Assembly: GCA_012838665.1 (NCBI GenBank)
Contig: DUOX01000012.1
Span: 24,936 to 88,935, forward strand
Direction of reading: 5' to 3'
Length of the DNA stretch: 64,000 nt
Source of the DNA: Clostridiales bacterium
GTDB taxonomy: Bacteria > Bacillota > Clostridia > Oscillospirales > Oscillospiraceae
The notes beneath the pieces were generated by a model, which searched no databases, was not told where the DNA came from, and worked only from the letters and a program-made list of their open reading frames with translations. The position numbers and the translations under genes were made by a program. Below, one piece after another: positions 33,267-47,155 of this stretch (positions are counted from its first letter, which is position 1; every line of letters starts with the position of its first letter).

Positions 33267-33407
33267 GTGAGGGCTAACATCGAGGAGCGCGCCTGCGAAT
33301 TGGCAGAATACATCATAGAAAACAAAGCTACGGTGCGCGCGGCTGCAAAACAATTCGGCATTAGCAAAAGCACCGTACATACAGTAGTAACAATATGGAA
33401 CGGTTAA
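33267..33407 (+). pseudogene. spoIIID: spoIIID, N-terminal part, interrupted by a 12.3-kb element
   Basis: From the GTG at 33267 (GGGAG eight bases upstream), the first 38 codons read as SpoIIID, the mother-cell DNA-binding regulator of sporulation. The sequence RANIEERACELAEYIIENK is followed by the helix-turn-helix AAAKQFGISKSTVH. At 33381 the sequence leaves the family and stops eight codons later (TVVTIWNG). The missing C-terminal half lies at 45703-45846. The break is at ACCGTACATA (33372-33381), and joining the halves restores an 82-aa protein. This piece alone is unlikely to function. Confidence 0.92.
33372..33381 (+). repeat. attL core repeat of the spoIIID element
   Basis: ACCGTACATA, identical to 45703-45712. 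Flanking bases differ on each side, so the core is 10 bp. It encodes Thr-Val-His of the SpoIIID recognition region. Confidence 0.85.
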
Positions 33408-33428
33408 TATGGCTATAAAAATATAAGT

Positions 33429-33450
33429 AAAGGAGGCTTATGCCTCCTTT
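33429..33450 (+). terminator. Hairpin just inside the left end of the element
   Basis: AAAGGAGGC pairs with GCCTCCTTTTTT, a compact canonical terminator after the truncated spoIIID reading frame. Confidence 0.75.
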
Positions 33451-33494
33451 TTTGATTCTTCATTGTTCAAAGAATCCGCTATCAATTACAGCTT

Positions 33495-33623
33495 TTACTT
33501 AGCATTGAAATATAAGTAATGTAGATAACGATAGAGAACTTCTTCTAATTCTTTCTCGGTTCCTGGATTAATTACCCTCACTCTCCGTCCATCTTCATAT
33601 GTTCTTTCATATACTACTTTCAT
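33495..33623 (-). CDS. Hypothetical 42-aa protein
   Basis: I do not recognise this small protein. It starts at ATG 33623 with AGAGGTG six bases upstream and reads MKVVYERTYEDGRRVRVINP, then a Leu/Tyr-rich helix, ending at 33495. It is charged, has no membrane segment and is well formed as a gene (ribosome site, full stop). It lies just inside the left end of the element, where an excision accessory protein could sit, but nothing shows that function. Confidence 0.5.
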   Translation of the reverse strand: MKVVYERTYEDGRRVRVINPGTEKELEEVLYRYLHYLYFNAK

Positions 33624-33691
33624 TTTGAGCACCTCTTCTTCTAAAATTACTTCTGATCCCCTCCATATTATAACCTTCTATTTATGTTTAG

Positions 33692-33787
33692 CTTCGGGAC
33701 CTTAGCGTTCACAAGGCAAACTATGAGGAATTGCGAGACCTTGAGGAACGAGAGAAACGCAAAGAGAAAGAGCACGGTCGTGAATGA
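33692..33787 (+). pseudogene. C-terminal scrap of a charged protein
   Basis: An open stretch without a start reads LRDLSVHKANYEELRDLEER and a Lys/Glu-rich tail ending at 33787. The style resembles C-termini of mobilisation or replication proteins of Gram-positive elements, but this is a guess. Confidence 0.3.
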
Positions 33788-33862
33788 CCGTGCTCCAGTC
33801 AGCGTCGGAACGATGCGTAGCCACAGATGAAATCTGTGTTAAAGGGGTTCGGGGATGTTTCC

Positions 33863-33911
33863 CAGACAAGCGATTTATAGGCTCCTGCTTCGGCAGGAGC
33901 TTATAAATTTT
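33863..33911. other. Strong hairpin in non-coding DNA of the element
   Basis: GCTCCTGC-TTCG-GCAGGAGC forms a perfect 8-bp stem with a UUCG-type loop, extended by TTTATA/TTATAAA. It lies in about 250 bp with no gene, flanked by CAAGC and GCTTG. It may be a terminator or a remnant of a transfer or replication site. Confidence 0.4.
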
Positions 33912-34030
33912 GCACGAGTGGGTACCGCCGTGCCCTGCTTGCCAAGTATGTTTCTAACTTTATCGTAAGAGACCCCTATCGTAAAAACTCACAAGCAGTC
34001 CTTCTTTGGACGGCATTTTTATCGGTTGAT

Positions 34031-34200
34031 CTATTTTTCATCTCCGTGCAATATCCAATCGGCATCGCATCCAAACTCAAAAGCAATGACTTTTGCAAGG
34101 GAGGGCGAGAGTGTGGCAAATTTATTTGTATCTCCGGTCAGCGTGTAAACATAATTCTCGGAAACTCCGATACGCTTTGCAAATTCTCTTTTGGAGATTT
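34031..34200 (-). pseudogene. C-terminal fragment of an XRE-type helix-turn-helix regulator
   Basis: The minus-strand frame reads KISKREFAKRIGVSENYVYT, then SPSLAKVIAFEFGCDADWIL, and stops at 34031. This is most of a lambda-repressor-like DNA-binding domain. The N-terminus is missing: the frame runs straight into a sensor-protein fragment at about 34200, so the junction is probably a deletion. Confidence 0.6.
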
Positions 34201-34591
34201 TCTGTTATCGGTGACAGATACCTGAGGGCAAAGAAATAACAGCATCCAATTGTGGCCGTCAGAAGGAGCAGAACAAGCAATACGATCCGCAGCGTATCAT
34301 CTGCTACCCATCTGTCATAGTCCTGTTTCGGAATAAGTACTGTCAAAGACAAGCCGCTTCCATCCTTACAGAGGCTTGTCTGTTTTGTCATTCCAACGTA
34401 TGAGGATGTTTTTCCCTGGAATAAGGTAAGGCCGCTTCCAAAGGAAGATGAAGTAAAATCTCCCGCCGGCGCTAAATAATACCCATTTGTAAATCCGCAA
34501 AAAAGGTTATAATCGTTGCCGGACTTCCCGATAAGGCGGAATCGGTGAGCCCATGGTCCGTTATCAATATATTCATGAATAAAACGCAGCT
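34195..34591 (-). pseudogene. Fragment of a membrane sensor protein
   Basis: Without a start codon, the frame reads about 130 residues of an extracytoplasmic sensor-like region (HRFRLIGKSGNDYNLFCGFT, then GSGLTLFQGKTSSYVGMTKQ). A transmembrane helix (IVLLVLLLLTATIGCCYFFA) and the HAMP-like RYLSPITENL follow. The output domain is missing, and the frame meets the XRE fragment. Both ends are lost, so it is a remnant of a one- or two-component sensor. Confidence 0.55.
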
Positions 34592-34592
34592 A

Positions 34593-35690
34593 TTACAGCT
34601 TGTCCTGGTTAATCCGGGCACTTTTTTTATCCTGTAAAATACCTTCCAGTATATCATCTCCCAGTCTTTCTATTGTCCTGCCCTCCAGGCGCAGGTCGCG
34701 GCCAAGAGCGGCGGACGCAATATTAATTAACGCGGTGCAAATAGGGGTCTTTACATTATACTTTAAACCAAAAGTTTCAAGAAGGACCAGCCCCTGGGGC
34801 ACATCCTCTGAAATATATCTGGAATCAACTACAACGGGTCCCTTTGCCCGTGTGGGCATGCCGGCATACCAAAAGAAAACTTCTTTAGCGTCCCGGCTGT
34901 CATCCAGGGTATTACGATATTTACAGGCTTCCACGTAGGAAAGGCGCTCACATCCCAGTTTCTCCATTACGTCCATCTTCTCGCTGTCCAGCGCCTCAAG
35001 AATACGCCAAACACTGGGGGTAAAAACCTCGTGATACATGCAGTAATCACCTTTGGTCTTTTCAATACGGGGAATACTCATAATAGCGCCCACAGTATGC
35101 ACAATCAGGTTGGGGTTATGAAGTCCCGCTTCAATTACAGAGGGAAGATATACAAAGGGAAAACCAAGCTTGTCCAGCTTCTCTTGGGCATCTTTCGTAC
35201 GGCTTGCGGGATATATGCCCAGTGGGTTGCGCACATTTCGAAAGCCAATTCTTATAGTTCCCGGTTCACTGATTCTGCAATCCAGAAAAGAACTTTGCGC
35301 TTCGACTATGGTCAAGTCGATGTTTGAGCAATGCTTCAGCACATATGAGGTAGAAAGATAGCCGGGGTTTAACAGAAGGATTTGGCCGTCCCGAAGATTA
35401 GGCTTTATGCGTTTAATCAGATCTTCATGATAATTTGTCTGTATGTAAACGATAACAATGTTACTTTCGCTGATAAGAGATATATCCCTGGTTACGCGTT
35501 TGATTCTCGCAACTTTCGTTTCACCGTTTTCGATAAGATTAACCACGCCACCATGTTCTAAAAGAAAGTTAAAATTCCGGTCATGCATGGCGTTGGATGT
35601 CTTGATTAATGTCACCTCATGACCTTTCAAGCTTAATTCTGCGGCTACCGCCGTACCGCCATTACCGGCGCCTAAAATGGATATATTCAA
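34593..35690 (-). CDS. NAD/NADP octopine/nopaline (opine) dehydrogenase family protein
   Basis: A 365-aa two-domain oxidoreductase. The N-terminal Rossmann motif is NISILGAGNGGTAVAAELSL. The C-terminal octopine-dehydrogenase domain includes HTVGAIMSIPRIE with a conserved His in the active-site region. The family reductively condenses an amino acid with a 2-oxo acid to make opines, including metallophores such as staphylopine; the substrate here is unknown. The four-base ATGA overlap with the upstream ATP-grasp gene shows translational coupling, so the two probably make one product. Confidence 0.85.
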   Translation of the reverse strand: MNISILGAGNGGTAVAAELSLKGHEVTLIKTSNAMHDRNFNFLLEHGGVVNLIENGETKVARIKRVTRDISLISESNIVIVYIQTNYHEDLIKRIKPNLRDGQILLLNPGYLSTSYVLKHCSNIDLTIVEAQSSFLDCRISEPGTIRIGFRNVRNPLGIYPASRTKDAQEKLDKLGFPFVYLPSVIEAGLHNPNLIVHTVGAIMSIPRIEKTKGDYCMYHEVFTPSVWRILEALDSEKMDVMEKLGCERLSYVEACKYRNTLDDSRDAKEVFFWYAGMPTRAKGPVVVDSRYISEDVPQGLVLLETFGLKYNVKTPICTALINIASAALGRDLRLEGRTIERLGDDILEGILQDKKSARINQDKL

Positions 35691-36820
35691 TTTAACACCC
35701 CTTCTATTTCAAAATTGATATTAGTAAACTCGTCTTCATTTAAAAATATCGCATTCAACACCGACTCTGTAAGATCCCCAAAGAGCGGGCCGCAGCTTAC
35801 CTGATTCATTGCGGGAGCGCCATTGTATTCGATTAATACCGGGTCTCCATCCTGGTCAATACAAAAATCCCAGCCGATAATCCGGAAGTGGGGAATGTCC
35901 CTATGCGCCCTGCGGACAGACTCTAAAACCCGGTCATATGAAGGAACTATGATATCAGCAAAGATGGTTCCGCCCGGGTGGCTCGTCGTCCATTGTGAGC
36001 GCCTGTTTATCGCCTCCATTGCAAGCCTTCCATCAGGAAAAATGGGGCAGGCAAGACCACCGGCGGAAACATTATCAAGGCGCGAACCCCCCACACCCAT
36101 ACGAAGGATGGCGGAAGAAATATGAACCTCGCCTTGGAATAAAAATGATATAACCCGTATGGTATTTATTGATTCCTTGTGTATGGACGCCAAAACTTCA
36201 TGCTGTGAGACGACTTCCTGAACGATATATTCAGTACCATAGGATTTTAACAAGTCCTCAAAATTTATGTTATCGGTGCCTTTTTCATAGAAAAATATAT
36301 CTACACCTTCGCCGCTGTATATGGCGGGTTTAATAACAAACCTGTCCTCAGACTCCAAAAGGAACTTTGCCTGAGCGAAACTAATAATATTTCCGTAACC
36401 ATCAAAAAAACAATTATTACTGTTTTTTATAATGGTTCGCAGCTGTTTTAAATAAGGAAAAAGCTGCTTATAAAAGCATTTATCAGTGTAGGCATGGCGA
36501 AAACTGGGCTTGTTAAACGCAGGGTAGATTTTTTGCCAATAAATATCCTCGGGTATGTAGCGTGGATCGTACTTTTCATCCTTGAAGCAATACAGGTCAT
36601 ACCACATTTTCTTTGGCTTAATACCGTACTTTTTCCAAAAGGAAAGAACTTGGGAGCGGTAAAGATGATTGCTGCCCCGGTAGCCGCCTTTAATAGTCGC
36701 CAGTTGGCGCCGACAGGCTTTTCGTGCCTTTCTCGCCTCATTAAAAAGATCAACTTTTTGATAAATGGAACGGCATAACTTTTCCCAGCTTCCGGCTTGA
36801 TTTATTCTCCTTGTTTTCAT
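35687..36820 (-). CDS. Sugar-transfer-associated ATP-grasp domain protein
   Basis: A 377-aa ATP-grasp protein. The ATP-grasp core spans about residues 130-370, with DRFVIKPAIYSGEGVDIFFY (nucleotide-binding Lys), YIVQEVVSQHEVLASIH and the metal-binding end IIGWDFCIDQDGDPVLIEYN. The family ligates carboxylates to amines or thiols and is often found in surface-polymer loci. ATG 36820 with AGGTGA five bases upstream is the start. The in-frame upstream extension is remnant DNA of a second opine dehydrogenase. It is the first intact gene of a two-gene unit. Confidence 0.82.
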   Translation of the reverse strand: MKTRRINQAGSWEKLCRSIYQKVDLFNEARKARKACRRQLATIKGGYRGSNHLYRSQVLSFWKKYGIKPKKMWYDLYCFKDEKYDPRYIPEDIYWQKIYPAFNKPSFRHAYTDKCFYKQLFPYLKQLRTIIKNSNNCFFDGYGNIISFAQAKFLLESEDRFVIKPAIYSGEGVDIFFYEKGTDNINFEDLLKSYGTEYIVQEVVSQHEVLASIHKESINTIRVISFLFQGEVHISSAILRMGVGGSRLDNVSAGGLACPIFPDGRLAMEAINRRSQWTTSHPGGTIFADIIVPSYDRVLESVRRAHRDIPHFRIIGWDFCIDQDGDPVLIEYNGAPAMNQVSCGPLFGDLTESVLNAIFLNEDEFTNINFEIEGVLN

Positions 36821-36821
36821 A

Positions 36822-37052
36822 TTATTCACCTGCTCCCCTTGCAGGATTTGTTGTAAGACAGCTTTTCCTAATGAGCTTAGGATTATGCAGGACAGCTCGG
36901 CAAATCCTGCCGCCGTTCCCAAGAAGAAAACTAAAATTGCCGTCATGCGTAGCACGAGATGTTTTAATCAGGGGCACTTCATGACCCCGCAGACTTAGGT
37001 CCGCCGCTACCGCAGTGCCCGCATGACCGGCACCGTGGATTGAAATATGCAT
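36822..37052 (-). pseudogene. N-terminal remnant of a second opine dehydrogenase
   Basis: The ATG at 37052, with GGGTGATGG upstream, opens HISIHGAGHAGTAVAADLSL and then GHEVPLIKTSRATHDGNFSF, a close copy of the first 55 residues of the neighbouring dehydrogenase. The frame then runs into unrelated sequence and ends at 36822. This is the stump of a tandem duplicate, consistent with an original dehydrogenase/ATP-grasp/dehydrogenase array or recombination between copies. Confidence 0.75.
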
Positions 37053-37496
37053 TCCATCACCCTTTCTAATAATTCTAAAAAAGTTTTTGCAATAGATAGC
37101 GTAAAAAAACGGGGATTGGCCTGACCCGGGATTTTTACTTGATAAAAACGAGCTGATAACAGCCAAGAAGGAGCATTTCCAAATTCCTAAATACCGCTTT
37201 TGATTGACCTTGCGGCATAGTTTTATATTTGTATGCAGTAGTAGAATTTACTATGGAGATTGACTATAAAACACCTCGTTATCCTGTATCTCCAGTTAAT
37301 GAAATGCCCCAACAGGAACAATAAACAGTATCGTTTTCATTTTCCCAAATATCCAATAATTGAATTACAGTTATGAATATATTAATATAATAACACAAAT
37401 GATACAATTTTTTCAAATTCCACTGAATTATAAAAAAGCTCATTTACATATTTTAAAATGGTTATTGATCGTAAACGGGTATAGTATTAGACATAA
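37053..37496. other. Non-coding gap in the element
   Basis: No supported gene. A 23-codon frame starting ATGGAGATTGAC at about 37254 (IDYKTPRYPVSPVNEMPQQE) looks like a scrap of a small protein. The rest is AT-rich. Confidence 0.3.
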
Positions 37497-37757
37497 ATGA
37501 CAAATGTCAATAACCTTGAGGAAGTTAGCGGTATTCCCGGGAGAGATGGAACTGGACCTTTGGGCGCCGGACCAATGACCGGAAGAGGTTCCGGGTTTTG
37601 CAAGGGCGCCAATGTAGTAAGTTATGGCGGTCCTGGCCTCGGTTCAGGCCCGGGTCCCACTTTCAGGCGGGGGGGGGTCTGCAGGGGCTTTGCAATTAAT
37701 GAAGCGGCTCCGGAAACACAAAGCTTCAGTCAATGTATACGGCCTGCTCCCAGTTAA
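37497..37757 (+). pseudogene. DUF5320-like Gly-rich small protein, degraded
   Basis: The sequence GRDGTGPLGAGPMTGRGSGF followed by a Gly-rich tail is the hallmark of the small DUF5320-type proteins found beside Mrp/NBP35 and NifX-like genes in anaerobes. After about 60 codons the reading changes to sequence belonging to the following mrp remnant, so the two genes seem fused by deletion. Confidence 0.6.
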
Positions 37758-38279
37758 AACCAGGACTGGTATTGATATCATGTCTGTAAATTTACTTTTG
37801 AAAAACGATGCCGACCCAGTTATCTGGAGGGGGCGGTTATCGGCGGCGCGGTTAAGCAGTTCTGGACGGATGTTATCTGGAGCGATGTGGATTTCATGTT
37901 CATCGATATGCCACCGGGCACCGGCGATGTTCCCCTTACTGTATTTCAATCCATTGCTGTTGATGGGATCATTGTTGTAACCTCGCCTCAGGAACTTGTA
38001 TCCATGATTGTATCCAAGGCTGTTAAAATGGCTGAGATGATGGACATACCCATTATCGGCCTGGTGGAAAACATGTCCTATTTTGAATGCCCGGATTGCG
38101 GTAAGGAACACAAAATTTTCGGTGAAAGCCATATTGATGAAATTGCAGATGAGCATAATCTAAAAGTTCTTGCGAAACTGCCGATTGACGAGGATTTCAG
38201 CGGCCTGCGATAAGGGCATGATAGAACTCTTTGACGGCAATTGGCTTGAGCCTGTGGCAAAAATATTGGAAGAAATATA
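37700..38279 (+). pseudogene. Mrp/NBP35-family Fe-S carrier ATPase, truncated and frameshifted
   Basis: Three frames together spell the central and C-terminal parts of an Mrp/NBP35 P-loop protein: LLPVKTRTGIDIMSVNLLLK, then DFMFIDMPPGTGDVPLTVFQ with NMSYFECPDCGKEHKIFG (the CxxC motif), then CDKGMIELFDGNWLEPVAKI. One frame change lies near 37835 in a run of Gs, another near 38205. The N-terminal P-loop is missing. The gene is dead. Confidence 0.8.
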
Positions 38280-38331
38280 AAGCGTATAATAAAGCGCGCG
38301 CTTTAAGCGGGCGATAAAACAATGATAAGAA

Positions 38332-38480
38332 TTGCGATAGCAAGCGAAAACGATTCGTCAGCAGAGCTTTTAGGCATTGCGCTAACCTCAATATTTTTGA
38401 AACTGGAAATAGCGGCAAGGTGATTACCTATTCCCGCTATGTGGATTACAATTACGGAGACTTTGCGGAAAGCCAACTAC
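38332..38480 (+). pseudogene. NifX/NifB-like iron-molybdenum cofactor domain protein, frameshifted
   Basis: The ATG at 38332 reads IRIAIASENDSSAELLG. A frame change near 38373 then leads to HCANLNIFETGNSGKVITYS, the pattern of dinitrogenase iron-molybdenum cofactor (NifX-like) domains. It breaks off at the promoter of the following riboswitch. Together with the DUF5320-like and Mrp remnants it forms a decayed copy of a common anaerobe gene set. Confidence 0.6.
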
Positions 38481-38509
38481 TTGACAAATACGTCCAAATC
38501 TGTTATCCT
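38481..38509 (+). promoter_or_regulatory. Promoter of the riboswitch / FecCD importer transcript
   Basis: TTGACA (38481-38486), a 17-nt spacer and TATCCT (38504-38509) lie 20 bp before the aptamer. Confidence 0.7.
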
Positions 38510-38528
38510 CTTTTCAGAAAAGTTAATA

Positions 38529-38652
38529 GTTTCCGTGCCTTGCGATCTAAGGGCTTTGCCTATGATCGTCTGGCCCAAGCGGCGCTTAAAGCGCTAAGCT
38601 TGTGGGGTTGATGTTGGAAACGATACAGCCTTTCCGTGTTTGAGAAGGAGAC
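38529..38652 (+). promoter_or_regulatory. Moco/Tuco-type riboswitch aptamer upstream of the ABC importer
   Basis: This RNA shares a conserved layout with the minus-strand element at 43358-43464 and with the E. coli moaA molybdenum-cofactor leader. P1 is GTTTCC/GGAGAC, P2 GCCTTGCGATC/GATCGTCTGGC, and a small P3 is GGGCTTTGCC. A GGCC junction leads to a stem-loop (GCGCTTAAAGCGC). The GGAAACG loop and the 3' signature GCCTTTCCGTGTTTGAGAAGG follow. P1 and P2 differ in sequence from the other copy but keep pairing, so the fold is supported by covariation. Ligand assignment (Mo or W cofactor) rests on resemblance. Confidence 0.78.
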
Positions 38653-38703
38653 AAAACTCTGAGATGACCTTTATTTAAAGGTATCTTATTACTTGTGGTA
38701 TGC

Positions 38704-38737
38704 AAGGCTGTTTTGTACTTCAAAACAGCCTTTTTAT
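38704..38737 (+). terminator. Riboswitch-controlled terminator before the importer
   Basis: AAGGCTGTTTTG pairs with CAAAACAGCCTT, followed by a T-rich tail, 52 bp after the aptamer and 60 bp before the permease. It is the likely expression platform. Confidence 0.85.
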
Positions 38738-38757
38738 TTTTACCGGAATGAAAAATA

Positions 38758-38782
38758 AGCTTGGGCAGGCCCTGCCCAAGCT
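38758..38782 (+). repeat. Perfect inverted repeat abutting the permease ribosome site
   Basis: AGCTTGGGCAGG and CCCTGCCCAAGCT form a perfect hairpin ending one base before the GGAAAG ribosome site of the permease gene. It could limit ribosome access or protect the transcript 5' end after riboswitch release. Confidence 0.55.
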
Positions 38783-38796
38783 GGAAAGAAATGGGT

Positions 38797-39816
38797 ATGA
38801 AAAAAAGGAAGAAACTCCCCTATGGCACAGTGGTGCTGATTCTTTTCATATTGCTTGTTGGCGCTGTTATACTTTCTTTTATGCTGGGGCGCTATCCCGT
38901 GCCCCCGAGAGAGCTGCTGGGAATACTGCTGTCCAAAGTTTTCACGGTGGAGCCATTTTGGAACGACACGATGGAGCTGGTGCTGTTTAATATACGCCTA
39001 CCCCGCATACTATTGGCCTGTCTTGTGGGGTGCTGCCTTTCTGCGGCAGGCACCGCGTATCAGGGTGTTTTACAGAACCCCATGGCGGCGCCGGATATTC
39101 TGGGCGCCTCCTCGGGAGCGGCCTTTGGAGCGGCCCTTGCCATTCTTTTTAACCGAAACAGTTGGACGGTAATAATATCAGCCTTCGTATTCAGCCTTAT
39201 GACGGTTGCGCTTGTAATATTTATCGGGGAGAGAAGCAGGGGTAAAAAAGTGCTGGGTCTGATACTCTCCGGCATAATGATTAGCTCTCTGTTTTCCGCC
39301 GCGACCTCCTTTGTTAAGCTGGTGGCGGACCCCTCAAACCAGCTGCCCGCTATTACCTATTGGCTTATGGGCAGCCTGGCGGGGACAAAACGCGGCGAGC
39401 TGCTGTTTGCGGTATTCCCCATGGCTGGCGGCCTGATTCCACTGCTCTTGCTGCGCTGGCGCATTAATGTGCTCACCTTGGGAGATGACGAGGCGCGCAC
39501 CATGGGCGTAAACGCGGCAGCTTTGCGGACCATAGTGATAATCTGCGCCACTCTTGTTACTGCTGCCAGCGTATCCGTCAGCGGCATGATAGGGTGGGTT
39601 GGCCTTGTAATACCCCATTTCGCCAGGAGGATGGTGGGCAATAACTACAAGCACCTTATGCCTGCTTCCATGATATTGGGTGCCATATTCCTGCTGTTGG
39701 TGGACAATGTTTCCCGTAATCTGCTTGCCATGGAGATACCCATAGGCATATTGACGGCATTTATCGGGGCGCCCTTCTTTATATATTTGATTACCAGAGA
39801 AGGTGAAAGGTATTGA
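38797..39816 (+). CDS. FecCD-family ABC transporter permease (possible molybdate/tungstate MolB-like)
   Basis: A 339-aa polytopic permease of about 10 helices from the family importing siderophores, B12 and, in MolBCA, molybdate/tungstate. Signatures are NIRLPRILLACLVGCCLSAAG, QGVLQNPMAAPDILGASSGA and SGMIGWVGLVIPHFARRMVG (ATPase-coupling region). ATG 38797, eight bases after GGAAAG, is preferred over ATG 38791. It is first in a permease/ATPase/binding-protein operon behind a Moco-type riboswitch, which argues for an oxyanion rather than an iron chelate. Confidence 0.92.
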   Translation: MKKRKKLPYGTVVLILFILLVGAVILSFMLGRYPVPPRELLGILLSKVFTVEPFWNDTMELVLFNIRLPRILLACLVGCCLSAAGTAYQGVLQNPMAAPDILGASSGAAFGAALAILFNRNSWTVIISAFVFSLMTVALVIFIGERSRGKKVLGLILSGIMISSLFSAATSFVKLVADPSNQLPAITYWLMGSLAGTKRGELLFAVFPMAGGLIPLLLLRWRINVLTLGDDEARTMGVNAAALRTIVIICATLVTAASVSVSGMIGWVGLVIPHFARRMVGNNYKHLMPASMILGAIFLLLVDNVSRNLLAMEIPIGILTAFIGAPFFIYLITREGERY

Positions 39817-40583
39817 GCATACAGGTAAACAATTTAAGCTTCAGCTACGGCGACAACCATGTACTGAAGGACGTGAGTTTCACCGCAAATGATGGGGAGC
39901 TTATGGCGGTTCTGGGACCCAACGGCGTGGGCAAAAGCACCCTTTTCCGCTGTATGCTGGGCCTTTTGCGTGAATATAAGGGCGAGACACTCATAAATGG
40001 GGAAAGCACAAGGGACATGAGCGCCAGAGAGCTGGCAAGGCGTGTGGCATATATCCCCCAATCCCATTATCCCGCCTTTAATTATAGCGTCTTTGACATG
40101 GTGCTGATGGGAACAATGGCCCAGGTATCCAGTATTTCCTCACCGGGGAAAAGACAGCTTGACCTGGCGGACAAAGCTTTGGCGCGGCTTAAAATATCCC
40201 ATCTGCGAAACAGAGGCTACACCCAAATAAGCGGCGGGGAGCGCCAGCTTACCCTAATTGCCCGGGCCCTGGTCCAGGAGGCGAAGGTGCTGATTATGGA
40301 TGAGCCCACGTCAAACCTTGACTATGGCAACCAGCTTAGGGTTATGGCGGAGATTAAGTCCCTGGCGGAAGAGGGCTATACGATAATTGAATCCACACAT
40401 AGCCCCGACCAGGCGTTTATGTACGCCAACAGAATACTGGCTATCCTTGACGGCCAGGTACTTGCCCTGGGCTCCCCCAGGGAGACGATTAACCAAGAGC
40501 TGATAAGGAAACTCTATGGAGTGGACGTGGAGATCCACAGCTTTAAAAATGACAGTATCAGGATTTTTGTTCCTGATTTATAA
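39813..40583 (+). CDS. ABC transporter ATP-binding protein (FecE/MolC-like)
   Basis: A 256-aa ATPase with Walker A GPNGVGKSTLFRCMLG, Q-loop around YIPQSHYPAFNYSVFDM, signature ISGGERQLTLIARALVQ, Walker B VLIMDEPTSNLDYGNQ and H-loop STHSPDQA. It starts with TTG at 39813, overlapping the permease stop by four bases behind GAAAGG, so translation is coupled. It energises the importer. Confidence 0.94.
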   Translation: MSIQVNNLSFSYGDNHVLKDVSFTANDGELMAVLGPNGVGKSTLFRCMLGLLREYKGETLINGESTRDMSARELARRVAYIPQSHYPAFNYSVFDMVLMGTMAQVSSISSPGKRQLDLADKALARLKISHLRNRGYTQISGGERQLTLIARALVQEAKVLIMDEPTSNLDYGNQLRVMAEIKSLAEEGYTIIESTHSPDQAFMYANRILAILDGQVLALGSPRETINQELIRKLYGVDVEIHSFKNDSIRIFVPDL

Positions 40584-40607
40584 TAATCAAAATGTGAGGT
40601 GTTAATA

Positions 40608-41744
40608 ATGAAAAATCGTATTCTTGCTTATACACTTGCGGCGCTGATGATTCTTTCATTGCTGACAGGCTGTGCAAAGGAAAGCCCCAATGAGGATGCG
40701 GTGGCGCCGGATGTCAGCCAGGTGCCGGCAGAGAGCGAGGCTCCCGGGGCAACAGAGCCCGCTCGGGAAGATTTTGTGTTTACAGATGATTGTGGCCGTC
40801 AGGTGGAAGTTCAGGGTGAAATAAGCAGAATAGTCCCTACCGGCCCAATAGCTCAAATTGCGCTTTTTGCCATTGCGCCGGAAATGATTGTTGGCCTTGC
40901 TTCTGAATGGGACAGCATTGCCAAGGACATTTTGGACGCTGAGTATTACAACCTGCCCCAAATAGGGCATATCTATGGCGGCAAAGGCGAGGTTAACCTT
41001 GAAGAGCTGGCCCTTCTGGCTCCACAGCTTCTTATTGATATCGGCGAAGCAAAAAGCAGCGTGGCGGAAGATCTGGACACCCTGCAGGAGCAGACGGGGA
41101 TAACCTGTGTCCACATTGAAGCCACCTTGGAGACCATGCCTCAGGTCTACCGCAAATTAGGGCGGCTTCTGGGCAGGGAGGAAAGAGGAGAGGACCTTGC
41201 GGAGTATTGTCAGAGGATATATGACAGGACCATGGATATAATTAATCAGGTCGGGGACAACCGGGCGGACGTACTTTATTGCCTGGGCCCCGAAGGCCTG
41301 AACGTCCTTGCAAAGGATTCTTACCACGCGGAGCTTATCGATATGCTCACAAATAACGTTGCCGTTGTGGACGAGCCGTCCTCCAAAGGTACCGGCAATG
41401 AGGTGGATATGGAACAGCTGCTCCTCTGGAATCCCGACTATATTATTTTTGCGCCGGAGGTGTCCCTTGATTCCCTTGTCAAAGAACCCTCCTGGCAGCA
41501 GATGAAGGCCATTTCCCAGGGAAATTATATTAAAGTGCCTTTCGGACCGTTCAACTGGATGGGAATGCCGCCTTCCGTGCAGCGTTATCTGGGGCTGATA
41601 TGGCTTCCCGCCGCCCTGTACCCCGACTATGTGGACTACGACGCATACGAGGAGATAGCGGAATATTTCCGGCTGTTCTACCACAGCGAGCTTTCAAGGG
41701 AGCTCTTTGACGAACTGACCCAGAACTCTTTCATTCAGAAATAA
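40608..41744 (+). CDS. ABC transporter substrate-binding lipoprotein (BtuF/MolA fold)
   Basis: A 378-aa lipoprotein with signal peptide and lipobox LLTGC (Cys about 22), then an acidic/Pro linker (to about 60). The two-lobed class III fold follows, opening with FTDDCGRQVEVQGEISRIVP and ending in PSVQRYLGLIWLPAALYPDY. The class binds B12, haem, chelates or, in MolA, molybdate/tungstate. ATG 40608 with GAGGTG six bases upstream is the start. Substrate specificity is inferred from the riboswitch. Confidence 0.92.
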   Translation: MKNRILAYTLAALMILSLLTGCAKESPNEDAVAPDVSQVPAESEAPGATEPAREDFVFTDDCGRQVEVQGEISRIVPTGPIAQIALFAIAPEMIVGLASEWDSIAKDILDAEYYNLPQIGHIYGGKGEVNLEELALLAPQLLIDIGEAKSSVAEDLDTLQEQTGITCVHIEATLETMPQVYRKLGRLLGREERGEDLAEYCQRIYDRTMDIINQVGDNRADVLYCLGPEGLNVLAKDSYHAELIDMLTNNVAVVDEPSSKGTGNEVDMEQLLLWNPDYIIFAPEVSLDSLVKEPSWQQMKAISQGNYIKVPFGPFNWMGMPPSVQRYLGLIWLPAALYPDYVDYDAYEEIAEYFRLFYHSELSRELFDELTQNSFIQK

Positions 41745-41747
41745 TGC

Positions 41748-41782
41748 AAATGAGGCCCCGCGCATGGCGCGGGGCCTCATTT
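41748..41782. terminator. Bidirectional terminator between importer and NTPase
   Basis: AAATGAGGCCCCGCGC pairs with GCGCGGGGCCTCATTT and is T-rich on the plus side. It separates convergent transcripts. Confidence 0.85.
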
Positions 41783-41805
41783 GGTTTTACAACACTCTCA
41801 AAAAA

Positions 41806-42333
41806 CTAACATTTGATAAGCCGTGAAAGCTCCCGGGCCAGCAGTTCGGGCAGGCTGTCGCGATTTTTTTCATCCACGGTGATTATTGTCACACCGGGAT
41901 TCTGCCGAATTTGATTTAGCCAGCCGCCTGCTGAATTTCTTATGACGCCAAATACCGGAAGCCTGCCTTCAATTGATTCAAGCACAGCAGACTGAAATCT
42001 CCGCGCATGGCGTTCCATTTTTCCCAGTTCGTCCATAACTATCAAATCAGCCGCTTTTGCCGCATTCAGAATATATTGCGCACCCAGTATATCAAATCGT
42101 TCGGTCAATACACACGGCGCCTGTCCCCGTTGAAACCGGGCCACAACGTACTCATCATCGTAGCTTGGCAGTTGCCCGAACTCCCCTATATACAGTCGCC
42201 TGTTATCGTCAAGGCGGTTTTCACTAAAGTATGTCTGGAATCCCCCGCATTTGGCGCCCAAAAGCGAAAGTGTTTTTTTAATAACGGTGCTTTTGCCAAT
42301 GCGGATTTCTCCCGTTAAAAAAATATGTTTCAT
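41806..42333 (-). CDS. THEP1-like nucleoside-triphosphatase (P-loop)
   Basis: A 175-aa P-loop NTPase of the THEP1/NTPase_1 type. Walker A is TGEIRIGKSTVIKKTL at residues 6-21, Walker B is ADLIVMDELGKME (about 100), and GVIRNS lies near the C-terminus. The biological role of the family is unknown. ATG 42333, with GGGGG five bases upstream, is chosen over in-frame starts at 42345 and 42408. It is last in a unit with the methyltransferase and a small ORF under a Moco-type riboswitch, which suggests a cofactor-handling task. Confidence 0.85.
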   Translation of the reverse strand: MKHIFLTGEIRIGKSTVIKKTLSLLGAKCGGFQTYFSENRLDDNRRLYIGEFGQLPSYDDEYVVARFQRGQAPCVLTERFDILGAQYILNAAKAADLIVMDELGKMERHARRFQSAVLESIEGRLPVFGVIRNSAGGWLNQIRQNPGVTIITVDEKNRDSLPELLARELSRLIKC

Positions 42334-42414
42334 AGTAACCCCCATATCTCCGTCCAGCGCACTAATAATAGAAGTACCGAAGCGGAGGAATTTGCTCTCC
42401 GAGTCCATCCGAAA

Positions 42415-43113
42415 TCAGCAATCCGTCGTGACATGCCATACGGACGGCTTGATAATCAGTTCTAAATTCTTGCGATAAGGAAGGTAAAAAGGATAATCCG
42501 CATTTCCAGTATTAATCAAGGTGGACAAAGTGTCCTCCAGAGTCTCGGCCCCTCCGAAAGTCGAGATATAATCCCGGGCGTCCTCAACTGATTTCAGCGG
42601 CTGTCCAAATTCCAGAGAAAACGTTAAAGTCAGGTGCTCTCCCCTTTCGGTGGGGAGGTTCAGGCACCATACCGAAGTACCTCCGTCTGAACGCACATGG
42701 CTGTCCAGATTCGTACGGTCTATGATAATCAGCCTTTTACGGCAGAGACTGCGAAAAAACAAGTCTTTGTCCGACCTTCTCCCCGCTGACACCATTACAA
42801 TATTATCCCAGAGGGGCCTGTCCCTCAAACTTAGCCAGTCTCTTTCAACAACCTCCAGTAAGGATATTCCGCGCCGCTGGAGCTCATTCCGCAGCCAGCC
42901 AATCGCTCTGGTATCTTTGTCTATGGCGGTAACCCTGTAACCCCGGGATGCCAGCTCCAGCGCCAGATAACCGATTCCGCACCCCATGTCGCAGACCGTC
43001 TCATTCTTTGGAAGGAAATTTGTTAAAACATCTGCGAGCTTCTGTCCAAAGCCCGTAAAGGCCACCGCCGCAGCATACCAGTTAATTGTCTTTTCCGACC
43101 AAGTAAAAGCCAT
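42415..43113 (-). CDS. Class I SAM-dependent methyltransferase of unknown substrate
   Basis: A 232-aa Rossmann methyltransferase. The SAM-binding motif ETVCDMGCGIGYLALELASR lies at residues 38-57, the acidic end of the second strand is VTAIDKD, and a DNIVMVSAG motif IV-like region follows. The rest is not diagnostic of any known target. GGTGGTG precedes the ATG, and the upstream small ORF stops three bases before it, so translation is coupled. Riboswitch control links it to molybdenum/tungsten cofactor status. Confidence 0.85.
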   Translation of the reverse strand: MAFTWSEKTINWYAAAVAFTGFGQKLADVLTNFLPKNETVCDMGCGIGYLALELASRGYRVTAIDKDTRAIGWLRNELQRRGISLLEVVERDWLSLRDRPLWDNIVMVSAGRRSDKDLFFRSLCRKRLIIIDRTNLDSHVRSDGGTSVWCLNLPTERGEHLTLTFSLEFGQPLKSVEDARDYISTFGGAETLEDTLSTLINTGNADYPFYLPYRKNLELIIKPSVWHVTTDC

Positions 43114-43116
43114 ATA

Positions 43117-43263
43117 TTACACCACCAGTTTAATATCAACTTCCGGTCTCAGACATCCAGTTGCAACCCGGCGCTCCGGTAGATGCCGTTTAATTTGCGC
43201 GGCAGTTACTTTTCCCGATTCAGTCAATTTTGCTCCGTGGAAACAACAAACGATGCGGAGCAA
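43117..43263 (-). CDS. Small 48-aa protein ahead of the methyltransferase
   Basis: A short frame reading LRIVCCFHGAKLTESGKVTA, then HLPERRVATGCLRPEVDIKL, ending in a stop three bases before the methyltransferase ATG. The likely start is TTG 43263, nine bases after GGGAGCGGAAG; an ATG at 43287 in the same frame lacks a ribosome site. Three Cys and one His could bind metal. It lies after the riboswitch terminator, so it is the first translated unit of the operon. The family is not recognised. Confidence 0.5.
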   Translation of the reverse strand: MLRIVCCFHGAKLTESGKVTAAQIKRHLPERRVATGCLRPEVDIKLVV

Positions 43264-43304
43264 GGGAAAAAACTTCCGCTCCCACATTTAAAAAGCCAAG
43301 TAGT

Positions 43305-43339
43305 AAAAAAATGCCACCTTCACGTGTCGTAAGATGGCA
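43305..43339 (-). terminator. Riboswitch-controlled terminator before the small ORF/methyltransferase operon
   Basis: On the minus strand TGCCATCTT pairs with AAGGTGGCA (one mismatch) and is followed by seven Ts. It lies 18 bases past the aptamer and about 40 bases before the small ORF. Confidence 0.88.
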
Positions 43340-43357
43340 AGATAACGGCATATTATC

Positions 43358-43464
43358 TATTCCTTCTCAAACACGGAAGGCACAGCCGTTTCCGACCATA
43401 CCCTGGAACCATACGGTTCGGCCTCACCCCCATAGCCGTGCCGTAGGCGGAGAGGCTTGGAATA
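43358..43464 (-). promoter_or_regulatory. Moco/Tuco-type riboswitch aptamer upstream of the methyltransferase/NTPase operon
   Basis: On the minus strand, P1 is TATTCC/GGAATA and P2 is GCCTC/GAGGC with a small inner GCCTACGGC hairpin. GGCCGAACCGTATGGTTCCAGGG and a CGGAAACG loop follow, then the 3' signature GCCTTCCGTGTTTGAGAAGG. The blocks AGCCTCT, GGCCG..AC, CCAGGG and GCCT-CCGT-TG-AAGG recur in the E. coli moaA Moco leader in the same order. A second copy of the same fold lies at 38529-38652. Confidence 0.8.
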
Positions 43465-43498
43465 TCAAGTTGCGATTTATTTGGTTATGTTTGAAATC

Positions 43499-43527
43499 AT
43501 TATAATGTTCAATCTTTTTCATGTCAA
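43499..43527 (-). promoter_or_regulatory. Promoter of the riboswitch / methyltransferase operon
   Basis: A perfect TTGACA (43527-43522), 17-nt spacer, TATAAT (43504-43499) on the minus strand, 35 bp before the aptamer. Confidence 0.85.
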
Positions 43528-43529
43528 GC

Positions 43530-43906
43530 ATAAGCAGGCATATATGCTTCTAAGGTGTTAAACCCGTAATAGGCCTGTAAAACATATCTTTTGATTCTCC
43601 CTTTTCCCAACTTAAACCTGTAAAGTATCCCGGTCAATACTCTGCAGGTTTTTCTTTTTTGGGCCTTGAATCCCCTTATATTGTTATGATTATAAGAATA
43701 AACCAGAAATTAATTTTCTGATATTTCATTATATTCAAACAACCGTGCTAAAAAAATACCCCGCCGACAAATTGTGTTTTTATACTCGGTGGTAATTTTA
43801 CAGTAAACGGCATAGACATCATAGTGTGAACATGATAAATTCGGAGCTTTTTAATACATAAATTTTGTCCGGTAGAACTATTAAACGAACGGAGGTGGTA
43901 TCTGCT
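43530..43906. other. Non-coding gap before the recombinase module
   Basis: About 370 bp of AT-rich DNA without a supported gene. It should contain the promoter of the 67-aa gene and recombinase. CATAGACA at 43811-43818 is a poor match to a sigma-E -10, and I see no convincing -35. Confidence 0.35.
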
Positions 43907-44110
43907 GTGGCAAAGCATAAATTAAATTATCGAATTCACAACCCAAATACGGCAGAGACCACTGCCAACTTTTTGCTTAGATTGCTTATTGAAGCAAATC
44001 AAAAAAAAGTGGAACTCTCAATCCTCGCCGCAACCCAAATTAATCCCCCAATACCGGAAGATTCAAAAAACATACTGCATGAAAAGAGTATTCCACATTT
44101 TCATAGTTAG
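43907..44110 (+). CDS. Hypothetical 67-aa protein upstream of the recombinase
   Basis: It starts at GTG 43907, eight bases after GGAGGTGG, one of the strongest ribosome sites in the element. The sequence KHKLNYRIHNPNTAETTANF, then LLRLLIEANQKKVELSILAA, is small, basic to neutral and partly helical. I do not recognise a family. Its position 67 bp ahead of the serine recombinase on the same strand fits a recombination directionality factor or regulator, but this is inference from context. Confidence 0.65.
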   Translation: MAKHKLNYRIHNPNTAETTANFLLRLLIEANQKKVELSILAATQINPPIPEDSKNILHEKSIPHFHS

Positions 44111-44177
44111 TGGGTTGCGCACGCGGGTTTCTCAAGCATTGGGAAGCCCGCTAATAATATTAGGAAGGTAGCTCAGT

Positions 44178-45713
44178 ATGAATATAGCAGCATATTGTCG
44201 TGTTTCGACTGACAAGGAGGACCAATTAAACAGCTTGGAAGCCCAGAAGCGTTTTTTTGCAGAGTATGCAGAAAAGAACGGACATGCCCTTTTAAGAATT
44301 TATGCTGACGAAGGCATTTCCGGCACCAAGACAAAAAACCGCAAGGAATTTCTGCGTCTTATGAAAGACGCAGAAAGTGGTTTGTTTGATATGATAGTAG
44401 TAAAAGACATTTCCCGTTTTGCCAGAAACACCGTTGATCTGCTGGATAACATTCGCAAGTTAAAGTCTTTGGGAATTGAAGTTTTATTTCTCACGGCAAA
44501 TATGACAAGCATGGGCAACAGCGAATTTGTGCTTACCGTTTTTGGGGCATTAGCGCAAGAAGAATCGGCTAACACATCCAAGCGCATTAAATTCGGAAAA
44601 AAGATTAATGCCGAACGGGGGCGGGTACCAAACATTGTTTATGGTTATGATAAGACTCTCGGGGATTATTTTAATCTTACAATAAACGAGAAGGAAGCGG
44701 ATACTGTCAGGCAAATATTTAACTGGTATGTGTTCGAAGGCTACGGAGCCTCAAAAATAGCCAATATGCTTAATGAGCGGGGGTTGAAAACAAAGCGTGG
44801 CTGCCTGTGGAGTCAAAACGCGATTTGCCGCATTCTTACCAACGAGCTGTATATTGGAAAAATCATAAATGGCAAACAGGAAGTGGTTGACTTCCTCACC
44901 GGGCAAAGGATTGGCAAAAAAGAGGACGAGTGGTTTGTTAATGAACGCCCCGATTTGGCCATAGTTGATGCCAAAATATTTGAAAAGGCTCAATTGGTCA
45001 TGTCCGAACGGAGACAAGCCTTCAAATTGAACAAAGAGCGTCAAAGCAATAAACACCTGTTTTCTACGCTTATCAAGTGCAAAGAATGCGGATGGTCCTT
45101 CAGACGTACAGTTCGCACTTATAAAAATACTTATGTGCGCTGGGTTTGCTCCGGACATAACGGGCGGGGAGCAGAAAGCTGCCCCAATGCCGTTACAATT
45201 GATGAAGGCGGATTAATTAATACTTTAGAATACTATTTCACCGAAATCCTGAAATCTAAAAAGAACATCATAAACCATGTCGTCAAACAATTCAATCAGA
45301 TTTATAAGGCAAAAAACGAGAATATAGAGTACGAAAAAGAACTCAATTCAAAACTGGCGAAGTTAAAAAAGGAACGACAAAAATATATGGATATGTATGT
45401 TGATGACATCATATCTCGTGAAGAGCTGAATTCCCTGACTGAAGAGCTAAAAGCAGAAATGGGACAGATAGAAGATGAATTAAAGCTGGTAAGTCTCAAT
45501 ATAACAAAAGGCGAACAGCTGGAATCCATTATTCAAAACACTTTTACCTCTATAGAAAGCATAGTCGATATCCGGGAAATGACCAACGCGCAGCTTAAGC
45601 AGATTATTGAAAAAATAGCAGTAGATAAAGACGGTAATGTCGATATATATTTGCGTTTGCTTTCAGATTTGGGCTTGGGCAAAACCGCTCTAATTAGTGA
45701 CAACCGTACATAA
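44178..45713 (+). CDS. Large serine recombinase of the spoIIID element
   Basis: A 511-aa site-specific recombinase. The resolvase-type catalytic domain carries the nucleophile in AAYCRVSTDKEDQ (Ser10) and active-site Arg residues in KDISRFARNTVDLLDN. A recombinase domain (residues about 160-260, GYGASKIANMLNERG), a zinc ribbon (CKECGWSFRR...CSGH) and a coiled coil (about 370-450) follow, typical of integrases of phages and skin elements (SpoIVCA class). The last codons and the TAA stop are formed by attR, so excision or integration rewrites the gene's 3' end. It is the likely enzyme that excises the element from spoIIID. Confidence 0.95.
   Translation: MNIAAYCRVSTDKEDQLNSLEAQKRFFAEYAEKNGHALLRIYADEGISGTKTKNRKEFLRLMKDAESGLFDMIVVKDISRFARNTVDLLDNIRKLKSLGIEVLFLTANMTSMGNSEFVLTVFGALAQEESANTSKRIKFGKKINAERGRVPNIVYGYDKTLGDYFNLTINEKEADTVRQIFNWYVFEGYGASKIANMLNERGLKTKRGCLWSQNAICRILTNELYIGKIINGKQEVVDFLTGQRIGKKEDEWFVNERPDLAIVDAKIFEKAQLVMSERRQAFKLNKERQSNKHLFSTLIKCKECGWSFRRTVRTYKNTYVRWVCSGHNGRGAESCPNAVTIDEGGLINTLEYYFTEILKSKKNIINHVVKQFNQIYKAKNENIEYEKELNSKLAKLKKERQKYMDMYVDDIISREELNSLTEELKAEMGQIEDELKLVSLNITKGEQLESIIQNTFTSIESIVDIREMTNAQLKQIIEKIAVDKDGNVDIYLRLLSDLGLGKTALISDNRT
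45703..45712 (+). repeat. attR core repeat of the spoIIID element
   Basis: ACCGTACATA, identical to attL at 33372-33381. It overlaps both the recombinase stop and the resumption of spoIIID. Confidence 0.85.
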
Positions 45714-45846
45714 AGATATATCCGAGCGGCTGGAACATATCAATCGTTCACTCCATCTTCAAGTTAAAGAAATATTGGAGAAAAACAAGGCAGAGAGGCA
45801 CATAAGGGGCGGCATAGCGACAAGAAAAAAATATCGCGGAGAATAG
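45703..45846 (+). pseudogene. spoIIID: spoIIID, C-terminal part, beyond the intervening element
   Basis: From the repeat onward the frame reads TVHKDISERLEHINRSLHLQ, then VKEILEKNKAERHIRGGIAT and a basic tail, ending at TAG 45846. This is the conserved C-terminal half of SpoIIID, including the basic extension that contacts DNA. It has no start codon of its own. Joined at the repeat to 33267-33381 it makes a complete 82-aa protein with no gap, added codon or stop, so the gene is intact except for the insertion. Confidence 0.92.
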
Positions 45847-46132: not shown

Positions 46133-47155
46133 ATGAGCACGAAGCATATCGGAAAGCAGACGGTTATTCTTCAAAAACCTCCCTCTATTGTGGCGGGAGC
46201 CTCCGTAGTAGGAGAAAAGGAGGGTAACGGCCCTCTGAGAAGATGCTTTGACTATATCAGCAATGATTCATATTTTGGGGAAAAAAGCTGGGAAAAAGCT
46301 GAAAGCGTCATGCTCAAGCAGTGTTTTTCCCTTGTTGCAAACAAGGCCAGGATAGCTCCCTCGGATATCGAGTATATTTTCAGCGGCGACCTGTTAAACC
46401 AGTGTGTCGGCTCCACCTTTGCCCTCAGGGAATCGGGCATCCCCTTTTTCGGATTGTTTGGGGCCTGCTCCACCATGGCCGAAGCCCTGTCCTTGGCCGC
46501 AATATTCATTGACGGAGGATTCTGTGACTGTGCGGCGGCCCTCACAAGCTCCCATTTTTGCTCGGCGGAACGGCAATTCCGTCACCCCCTGGAATACGGC
46601 GGGCAGCGCCCTCCCACATCTCAATGGACAGTCACGGGCGCCGGCGCGTTGATACTGAAATCCGAAGGTCCCGGCCCCTATGTGACCCATATTACCACGG
46701 GCAAAATTGTAGACGCCGGCGTCACCGATGCCAACAACATGGGCGCCGCGATGGCTCCGGCGGCATATGACACCCTAAAGACCCATTTTGAAGACACGGG
46801 CCGTAAACCCAATGACTATGACGCCATCGTTACCGGAGACCTGGGCGGCGTGGGCCGGGAAGTAATCCTTGATTTTTTTGCCGCGGACGGGATGGACCTG
46901 AGCTCCATACTCATGGACTGCGGCCTGCTTATCTTTGACACCGAAACCCAAGACGTGCATGCCGGAGGCAGCGGCTGCGGCTGTTCTGCCGCTGTGCTTG
47001 CCAGCCATCTCCTGCCGGAAATGACGGGCGGGCGGTGGAAAAGACTGCTCTTTGCCGCCACCGGAGCCCTCATGTCCCCGGTCACCACCCAGCAGGGGGA
47101 AAGCATACCGAGCATATGCCATGCCGTGGCTCTGGACATGAACAGGGAGTGTTAA
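46133..47155 (+). CDS. spoVAD: Stage V sporulation protein AD
   Basis: A 340-aa thiolase-fold spore protein that binds dipicolinic acid and helps load it into the forespore. Diagnostic stretches are FGLFGACSTMAEALSLAAIF (thiolase-like nucleophile-elbow region), CSAERQFRHPLEYGGQRPPTSQWTVTGAGA (split) and GSGCGCSAAVLASHLLPEM. GGAGTG lies six bases before the ATG. A weak sigma-G/F-like promoter (GTAAA, 17 nt, CATAATA) lies just upstream. spoVAE follows directly, while spoVAC is not present here. Confidence 0.95.
   Translation: MSTKHIGKQTVILQKPPSIVAGASVVGEKEGNGPLRRCFDYISNDSYFGEKSWEKAESVMLKQCFSLVANKARIAPSDIEYIFSGDLLNQCVGSTFALRESGIPFFGLFGACSTMAEALSLAAIFIDGGFCDCAAALTSSHFCSAERQFRHPLEYGGQRPPTSQWTVTGAGALILKSEGPGPYVTHITTGKIVDAGVTDANNMGAAMAPAAYDTLKTHFEDTGRKPNDYDAIVTGDLGGVGREVILDFFAADGMDLSSILMDCGLLIFDTETQDVHAGGSGCGCSAAVLASHLLPEMTGGRWKRLLFAATGALMSPVTTQQGESIPSICHAVALDMNREC

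Follow-up and report, generated by a model that had tools for sequence, protein, structure and literature searches.

Can a bacterium whose spoIIID gene is cut in two by more than 12 kb of other DNA still make the SpoIIID protein? The question is raised by a stretch of 64,000 nucleotides (the window) that corresponds to bases 24,936–88,935 of contig 48 in a 1.76-Mb, 61-contig assembly, 97.99% complete. In the window an insert of 12,331 bp separates codons 38 and 39 of spoIIID (...STVH/KDIS...). The 5′ part begins with GTG and comprises codons 1–38 (...SKSTVH; 33267–33380, plus strand), and the 3′ part comprises codons 39–82 and the stop (KDISERL...; 45712–45846, plus strand). The sequence-only reading of this DNA had placed the split at 33380/45712 with a 12.3-kb insert, a common repeat at both junctions, a large serine recombinase (LSR) at the end of the insert, and a complete in-frame protein of 82 amino acids on joining the halves. 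All of this was borne out, the coordinates exactly. We conclude that a site-specific mobile element splits spoIIID, and that it is probably excised in the mother cell by its own LSR, likely steered by a small protein that we term HNPN, which would restore the 82-codon gene.

The N-terminal half matches the Pfam family SpoIIID (PF12116, E = 5.4e-16). When the whole genome was searched with TIGR02844, the 3′ half scored 65.5 bits and the 5′ half 48.5 bits, both below the 111.5-bit cut-off. These two partial matches were the only ones at E ≤ 0.001; a second intact spoIIID, which would have spoken against the earlier reading, was not found in the assembly at its 97.99% completeness. Unexcised, the gene would encode a truncated product of 46 amino acids ending TVVTIWNG (33267–33407, plus strand; stop at 33405–33407). 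Joining the halves at the repeat gives an in-frame product of 82 amino acids, ...AAKQFGISKSTVH-KDISERLEHINRSL.... The element thus lies inside a sporulation gene and between direct repeats, and precise excision would give the whole spoIIID frame, as for skin-type elements. The host gene is not sigK, so this is not a skin element proper. The LSR and att repeats of the insert were reason to set aside an intein or group II intron.

The 10-bp repeat ACCGTACATA is present at 33372–33381 (attL) and 45703–45712 (attR), both on the plus strand, and nowhere else in the window. A mean of 0.05 copies is expected, and none of 100 shuffled sequences had two. The right arm of attP continues from the left core to about 33406, and the left arm occupies about 45681–45702. 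Rebuilt from both ends, the attP of the window is an inverted repeat centered on CA, with 17 of 25 positions symmetric compared with 3–8 at four neighboring centers. The corresponding values for a phage relative described below (L168) are 20 of 25 around CA, and 5–10 at the neighboring centers. The LSR (511 amino acids; 44178–45713, plus strand) has resolvase catalytic (Resolvase PF00239, E = 9e-35), recombinase (Recombinase PF07508, E = 4.4e-24) and zinc-ribbon (Zn_ribbon_recom PF13408, E = 2.2e-11) domains, which together with an inverted-repeat attP are the properties expected of an LSR. In PHROGs it matches the integrase family phrog_95 (E = 3.3e-119). The central CA falls in the CAT codon of His38, and crossover is therefore predicted there. 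The LSR would recombine attL with attR at this dinucleotide, and the predicted attB has a joined junction of the AGCACCGTACATAAAGAT type.

The same arrangement recurs in many relatives. One genome per species was scanned for relatives of the LSR, and of the 145 loci found the best 80 were examined. Over the best segment, the LSRs of these 80 share 69–74% identity with the window LSR. In 76 of them the spoIIID 3′ half adjoins the LSR, 1–157 nt past its last aligned residue; the others are L039, L046, L049 and L090, and the contig of L090 stops at that point. Both halves are in view in 17 of the 80 loci, all 17 being cut at STVH/KD or STIH/KD with elements of 3.75–10.4 kb, and in the other 63 the 5′ half falls outside the fetched stretch, which is uninformative either way. 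By record titles the element occurs in named Lachnospiraceae and Oscillospiraceae, the 76 including Blautia, Extibacter muris, Schaedlerella, Sporofaciens, Pseudoflavonifractor, Agathobaculum, Angelakisella and [Ruminococcus] torques. Culturable isolates with the 3′ half beside the LSR are Extibacter muris DSM 28560 (L086), Schaedlerella arabinosiphila DSM 106076 (L052, with both halves in view), Agathobaculum butyriciproducens DSM 100391 (L042) and Blautia schinkii (L050). L039, L046 and L049 have close relatives of the LSR away from spoIIID, with an att-like sequence after the LSR and other DNA downstream.

Within the family of the window, TIGR02844 matched 158 of 200 genomes. The LSR was found in 14 of the 200 (E ≤ 1e-150), with the spoIIID 3′ half beside it in 13. 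Twenty-two family genomes with partial matches or an LSR were re-searched, and in 21 there was no full-length spoIIID, some of these perhaps reflecting contig breaks (G110, G135, G075 and others with the halves on different contigs). Eleven of the 22 have both halves on a single contig, from ~2.5 kb (G038) to ~35 kb (G181) apart. Twelve stretches were fetched from the family, and all seven that contain both halves are cut at STVH/KD, including one in which the LSR is 45% identical (G044). Across the order the LSR is present in 14 of 394 genomes (E ≤ 1e-180), from eight families, and the 3′ half is adjacent in every case. Ten order genomes were newly searched. All ten have the 3′ half and nine the 5′ half, and no full-length spoIIID above the cut-off was found in any of the ten. 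The nine include the single-contig genome G207, where the halves are 6.7 kb apart.

The sequence-only reading had also called for the ancestral junction in relatives, and in the 30 best-scoring intact loci SKST[VI]H[KR]D is read straight through in all 30. An ordinary pseudogene was rejected, the halves being open and conserved and the codon boundary fixed. The locus singled out by that reading belongs to a widespread family of elements, free phages included. We infer excision and its timing, and class the insert as a sporulation gene-intervening element with spoIIID as its host, widespread in Clostridia. The elements of the relatives range from 2.6 to about 35 kb. In the smallest (L157; 2,565 bp) the LSR is accompanied by a weakly HNPN-like frame and, on the opposite strand, by an open frame of ~157 codons. 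At L070 there are two spoIIID 3′ halves (2238–2360 and 4870–4992), ~2.5 kb apart and 94% identical over 157 bp, each preceded by an att-like sequence. The copy next to the LSR may travel with the element.

The stop codon of the window LSR (45711–45713) spans the end of the att core and the start of the spoIIID 3′ half: its TAA is formed by the last T of the core CAT and the opening bases of that half. The same T+AA is found at the junction in 64 of the 76 relatives. The K codon follows the final aligned residue of the LSR at a distance that is 1 modulo 3 in all 76, and a single base in 48. On the excised circle the window LSR frame would extend by 12 residues over the attP arm (...TYSSNNMERLIWL; 45681–45713 plus 33381–33420), and in 16 of 17 other elements the LSR frame passes the junction.

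Clustering of the open reading frames across the elements revealed one conserved small protein on the same strand besides the LSR. Larger clusters, from the strand opposite the LSR, resemble antisense frames of its gene. The small protein is HNPN, of about 50–70 residues with the motif LNYRFHNPN...TADYILKIFIEAN. In the window it has 67 amino acids, with a GTG start after GGAGGTGG (43907–44110, plus strand). An HNPN profile detected it in 70 of the 80 loci and in the window, and in all 71 it is upstream of the LSR on the same strand; in L158 and L121 it is on the opposite strand. The window HNPN is 29–52% identical to 50 relatives and matches the profile with E = 5.6e-21, its own sequence being in the profile seed. 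Distant LSRs are also accompanied by weak HNPN-like matches (L156, E = 9.5e-5; L157, E = 3.5e-4). No family in Pfam or NCBIfam matches the window HNPN, and the profile gave no credible match among PDB sequences. Searched against a protein database the profile gave 3,095 matches at E ≤ 1e-3, and among the 120 listed the legible names are hypothetical or uncharacterized protein. A search with the single sequence found one near-identical protein. Assignment to a known phage family was rejected, because the match of the window stretch to phrog_38621 (E = 0.007) was not repeated among 51 members. LSRs require a recombination directionality factor (RDF) for excision (PMC5025042, PMC5595907). HNPN is the best candidate for this role.

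In the relatives, the upstream sequences suggest that HNPN mostly has a promoter of mother-cell (sigma-E-like) type, and the LSR mostly a vegetative one. Upstream regions were long enough for 67 of the 71 HNPN genes. The pattern NTATTT-N11..15-CATA is present in 43 of the 67 (mean of 0.3 and maximum of 3 in shuffled sequences), and upstream of the LSR in 1 of 81. These 43 have the element GGACTATTT-N13-TTTCATAGTTATG in relaxed form, and in 42 of them the spacer is 13. Sigma-A-like sites are found upstream of the LSR in 56 of 81 cases (shuffle mean 18.3, maximum 24), and upstream of HNPN in 2 of 67. In B. subtilis spoIVA is dependent on sigma-E. For comparison we took 20 native spoIVA upstream regions, the plus-strand cases from 169 family genomes with a match, with a start codon that is uncertain in several. 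A −10 sequence CATA-N2..3-[AT]TG occurs in 10 of the 20 (shuffle mean 0.8), in 50 of 67 HNPN regions and in 1 of 81 LSR regions. In 9 of the 20 spoIVA regions there is a −35 resembling that of HNPN, at equal spacing. Upstream of the LSR a GTAACAGA-type motif that resembles the attP arm is found in 50 of 81 cases (shuffle 0.3). As GTAACAGA(ACG) it follows the vegetative-type promoter and precedes the LSR start, and LSR autoregulation is possible.

A scheme can be proposed in which LSR made in vegetative cells would integrate the circle into spoIIID. During sporulation, sigma-E activity in the mother cell would lead to the synthesis of HNPN, which would switch the LSR from integration to excision. 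Recombination of attL with attR would then make spoIIID whole, and it would be expressed in the mother cell. The forespore would keep the element, which would thus be inherited through the spore. Since SpoIIID is the product of the switch, expression of HNPN should be independent of SpoIIID, or else the switch could not start. Excision in the mother cell would on this scheme gate the step from sigma-E to sigma-K. In B. subtilis it is established that SpoIIID acts before sigK, so the DNA rearrangement would fall one step earlier in the mother-cell cascade. We lean, if slightly, toward a broader proposal, in which temperate phages and cargo elements of a so far unreported lineage in gut Clostridia use spoIIID as a standard site of integration. 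Mother-cell development in dozens of species would then pass from sigma-E to sigma-K by way of a DNA-level switch, operated by a constitutive recombinase together with HNPN, a new family of small directionality factors activated by sigma-E without SpoIIID.

A number of observations weigh against developmental excision steered by HNPN. The region upstream of HNPN in the window is no better than chance for the conserved promoter, 409 of 1000 shuffles scoring as high. The ~70 nt between HNPN and the LSR in the window contain just a weak sigma-70-like site (9/12), the scanned region having ten such sites compared with 6.5 in shuffles. With this spacing and a weak site between them, the two genes may be one operon. 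The HNPN promoter pattern was chosen after viewing the same sequences, and the −35 variants were defined after viewing spoIVA. The role of HNPN as RDF is assigned by association, and an AlphaFold model of the protein is mainly two helices with a predicted template modeling score of 0.42. HNPN was not found in ten of the 80 loci (L053, L078, L084, L085, L095, L098, L100, L102, L104 and L109). Six of the ten span just 167–1,615 nt upstream of the LSR; L104, L109, L085 and L098 have 2.4–10 kb upstream and still no HNPN. Finally G109, the exception among the 14 family genomes with the LSR, has a 58%-identical LSR together with a whole spoIIID.

Could spoIIID then simply be the attB of a plain site-specific mobile element or of a decayed prophage, in a host that has lost sporulation or nearly so, without developmental excision? 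The small genome of 1.76 Mb would be in keeping with this, as would the failure to recognize a sporulation-type promoter in the window. So would the patchy occurrence of the element, with a whole spoIIID in sister species. Mixed genera include g23 (G181 and G472 split; G022 and G117 whole), g30, g45, g64 and g74. The elements also show signs of horizontal movement. The LSR DNA of L050 and L055 is 99% identical and their spoIIID 3′ halves 80%; for L034 and L035 the values are 93% and 52%. Over 2,910 pairs the correlation between LSR and 3′-half identity is 0.25. These comparisons indicate that the LSR and the host gene have separate histories, and that elements have moved between hosts.

Phages with an intact attP would also be expected of a plain element. 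Four IMG/VR contigs (50–119 kb) contain the LSR (66–69% identical) and HNPN, with an intact attP directly 3′ of the LSR, e.g. GTTCTGATTAGTGACTCCTGTACATACAGGAGTAACAAAATAGAACGG. Neither half of spoIIID is present in the 21.5 kb fetched from each contig. Three of them are 99.995–100% identical over 21.5 kb and so are the same phage, giving two phages in all. Phage-type genes of L168 include a DNA polymerase and a head maturation protease, and those of L171 a DNA polymerase, a DNA ligase and tail-fiber proteins. In the viral collection a consensus attP pattern matched these four contigs and no others. It matched none of the other loci, although the pattern is strict and would also miss the attP of the window. 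Among deposited phages there was one LSR match, MT838016.1 (L176), titled 'Bacteriophage sp.', and among deposited plasmids none. The spoIIID 3′ half (3638–3760) follows the LSR in MT838016.1, so that at least this part is an integrated bacterial locus, and it was rejected as a free phage junction. Our literature search found no paper on MT838016.

Set against a plain element is the state of spoIIID, and of the other sporulation genes, in the genomes concerned. Over the 41 codons examined, the 3′ half of spoIIID is free of stop codons in all 76 relatives. The median ratio of nonsynonymous to synonymous substitution (dN/dS) of the 3′ halves is 0.21 for split genes (576 pairs) and 0.18 for intact genes (101 pairs), taking pairs with 0.1 < dS < 2; the split set has 77 rows, that of the window being one base out of frame. 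For the 5′ halves the medians are 0.16 (34 pairs) and 0.11 (155 pairs), respectively. Sister species lack the element, and the signal could therefore partly predate insertion, which is a further point against our reading. All 21 genomes with a split or partial spoIIID encode SpoIVA, but so do 169 of 200 across the family, and its presence thus weighs little. The genome of the window has an unbroken sigma-K-type match (2–224 of 227) and a sigma-E-type match, none of which reached the cut-off and whose assignment as sigma-K or sigma-E is our own reading. The mother-cell-type promoter before HNPN in 43 of 67 upstream regions also argues against a plain element. Taking these data together we consider an element without developmental excision unlikely.

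In several other genomes whose spoIIID is split or partial, the best sigma-K-type gene also appears as partial matches, as in contig 4 of G149 (133835–134188 and 141113–141469), and likewise in G029, G197, G050, G038 and G181. The parts are on one contig in G149 and G181, and on different contigs or with one part only in the others. Some species may thus have both mother-cell regulators interrupted.

A different possibility is that excision and re-integration take place in vegetative cells, by phage induction or phase variation, and that only a subpopulation with joined spoIIID can sporulate. Vegetative-type LSR promoters in 56 of 81 loci and phage relatives with the same module would be consistent with this, but the sporulation-type promoters of HNPN in 43 of 67 are not. 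The failure of the attP pattern to match any integrated locus also argues against it, weakly, since the pattern is strict and a circle would rarely be seen in assemblies. We regard vegetative excision as improbable. Although the window comes from a 61-contig draft, an assembly or binning artifact is scarcely conceivable. All 17 named loci in which both halves can be seen share one junction, the halves in single-contig G207 are separated by 6.7 kb, and the window LSR is 69–74% identical to those of 80 loci; for the family, an artifact is refuted by many independent records.

Excision of spoIIID elements in the mother cell, as we propose, would resemble several known systems. In the C. difficile skin element (host sigK; LSR CD1231, RDF CD1234) the LSR gene likewise directly precedes the 3′ part of its host gene, and attL and attR share a short common core in inverted repeats (PMC5025042). 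CD1231 is constitutive (sigma-A), and CD1234 is under sigma-E and SpoIIID (PMC5025042). The vegetative-type LSR promoter and sporulation-type promoter of the partner gene are features shared here by the relatives, but in C. difficile the host is sigK and CD1234 needs SpoIIID for full expression (PMC5025042), which would be impossible here before joining. The B. subtilis skin element (sigK; LSR SpoIVCA) also splits the gene of a mother-cell regulator and has its own serine recombinase. It differs in its sigK host, and in that spoIVCA is itself under sigma-E and SpoIIID (PMC5025042). Thus control of both skin elements involves SpoIIID, whereas SpoIIID-independent HNPN is expected here. The gin element of Bacillus cereus ATCC 10987 (gerE; GirC, GirX) is similarly a non-phage element in a small regulator gene, with an LSR, a separate RDF and a 9-bp common core (PMC5595907). 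It differs in its gerE host, three LSRs, length of 28.6 kb and other cargo (PMC5595907). The SP-beta prophage in spsM (SprA, SprB) and the yin element in yabG likewise use a sporulation gene as the integration site of a phage or prophage-like element. Their host genes are different, and spsM concerns spore surface polysaccharide and not early mother-cell regulation (PMC5595907). Among the matches listed from the open literature no element in spoIIID appeared, the host genes named there being sigK, gerE, spsM and yabG; a report elsewhere, in subscription papers or preprints, is possible. HNPN of the relatives is likened to CD1234 by promoter type.

Spores are thought to carry gut bacteria such as Lachnospiraceae and Oscillospiraceae between hosts. 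In these hard-to-study bacteria the attB junction could serve as a simple marker of mother-cell development. The elements also provide a new pair of LSR and candidate RDF with defined att sites. In genome annotation, a 'broken' spoIIID may nevertheless belong to a spore-former.

The remainder of the window element (33381–45711) is occupied by cargo. Its G+C content is 45.4%, compared with 50.2% and 51.4% in the 10-kb flanks. On the minus strand are an octopine/nopaline-type dehydrogenase (34593–35690; PF02317, E = 1.7e-42) and an ATP-grasp protein (35687–36955; PF14397, E = 1.1e-36). These are followed on the plus strand by a DUF5320 small protein (37497–37757; PF17253, E = 1.2e-12) and a partial Mrp/NUBPL-type P-loop NTPase (37887–38213; PF10609, E = 2.2e-40, covering 112–215 of 246 profile positions only), which are possibly decaying cargo (37497–38213). 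A FecCD-type permease (38761–39816; PF01032, E = 1.7e-89), an ATP-binding cassette (ABC) ATPase (39813–40583; PF00005, E = 4.9e-32) and a periplasmic-binding-type protein (40599–41744; PF01497, E = 8.6e-16), all on the plus strand, would form an importer of the iron-siderophore/cobalamin type, the substrate being suggested by family. An NTPase of the NTPase_1 family (41806–42408; PF03266, E = 1.8e-27) and a methyltransferase (42415–43113; PF05175, E = 3.6e-9) are on the minus strand. None of the nine cargo proteins gave a PHROGs match to phage head, tail or packaging families at E ≤ 1e-5, matches being to ABC transporter or unknown families, and two further small open reading frames of the element gave no PHROGs match. 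A perfect sigma-70 consensus promoter (12/12) is present inside the element on the minus strand (43499–43527), directed toward the methyltransferase and NTPase genes. Outside the element, spoVAD lies directly 3′ of spoIIID (46133–47155).

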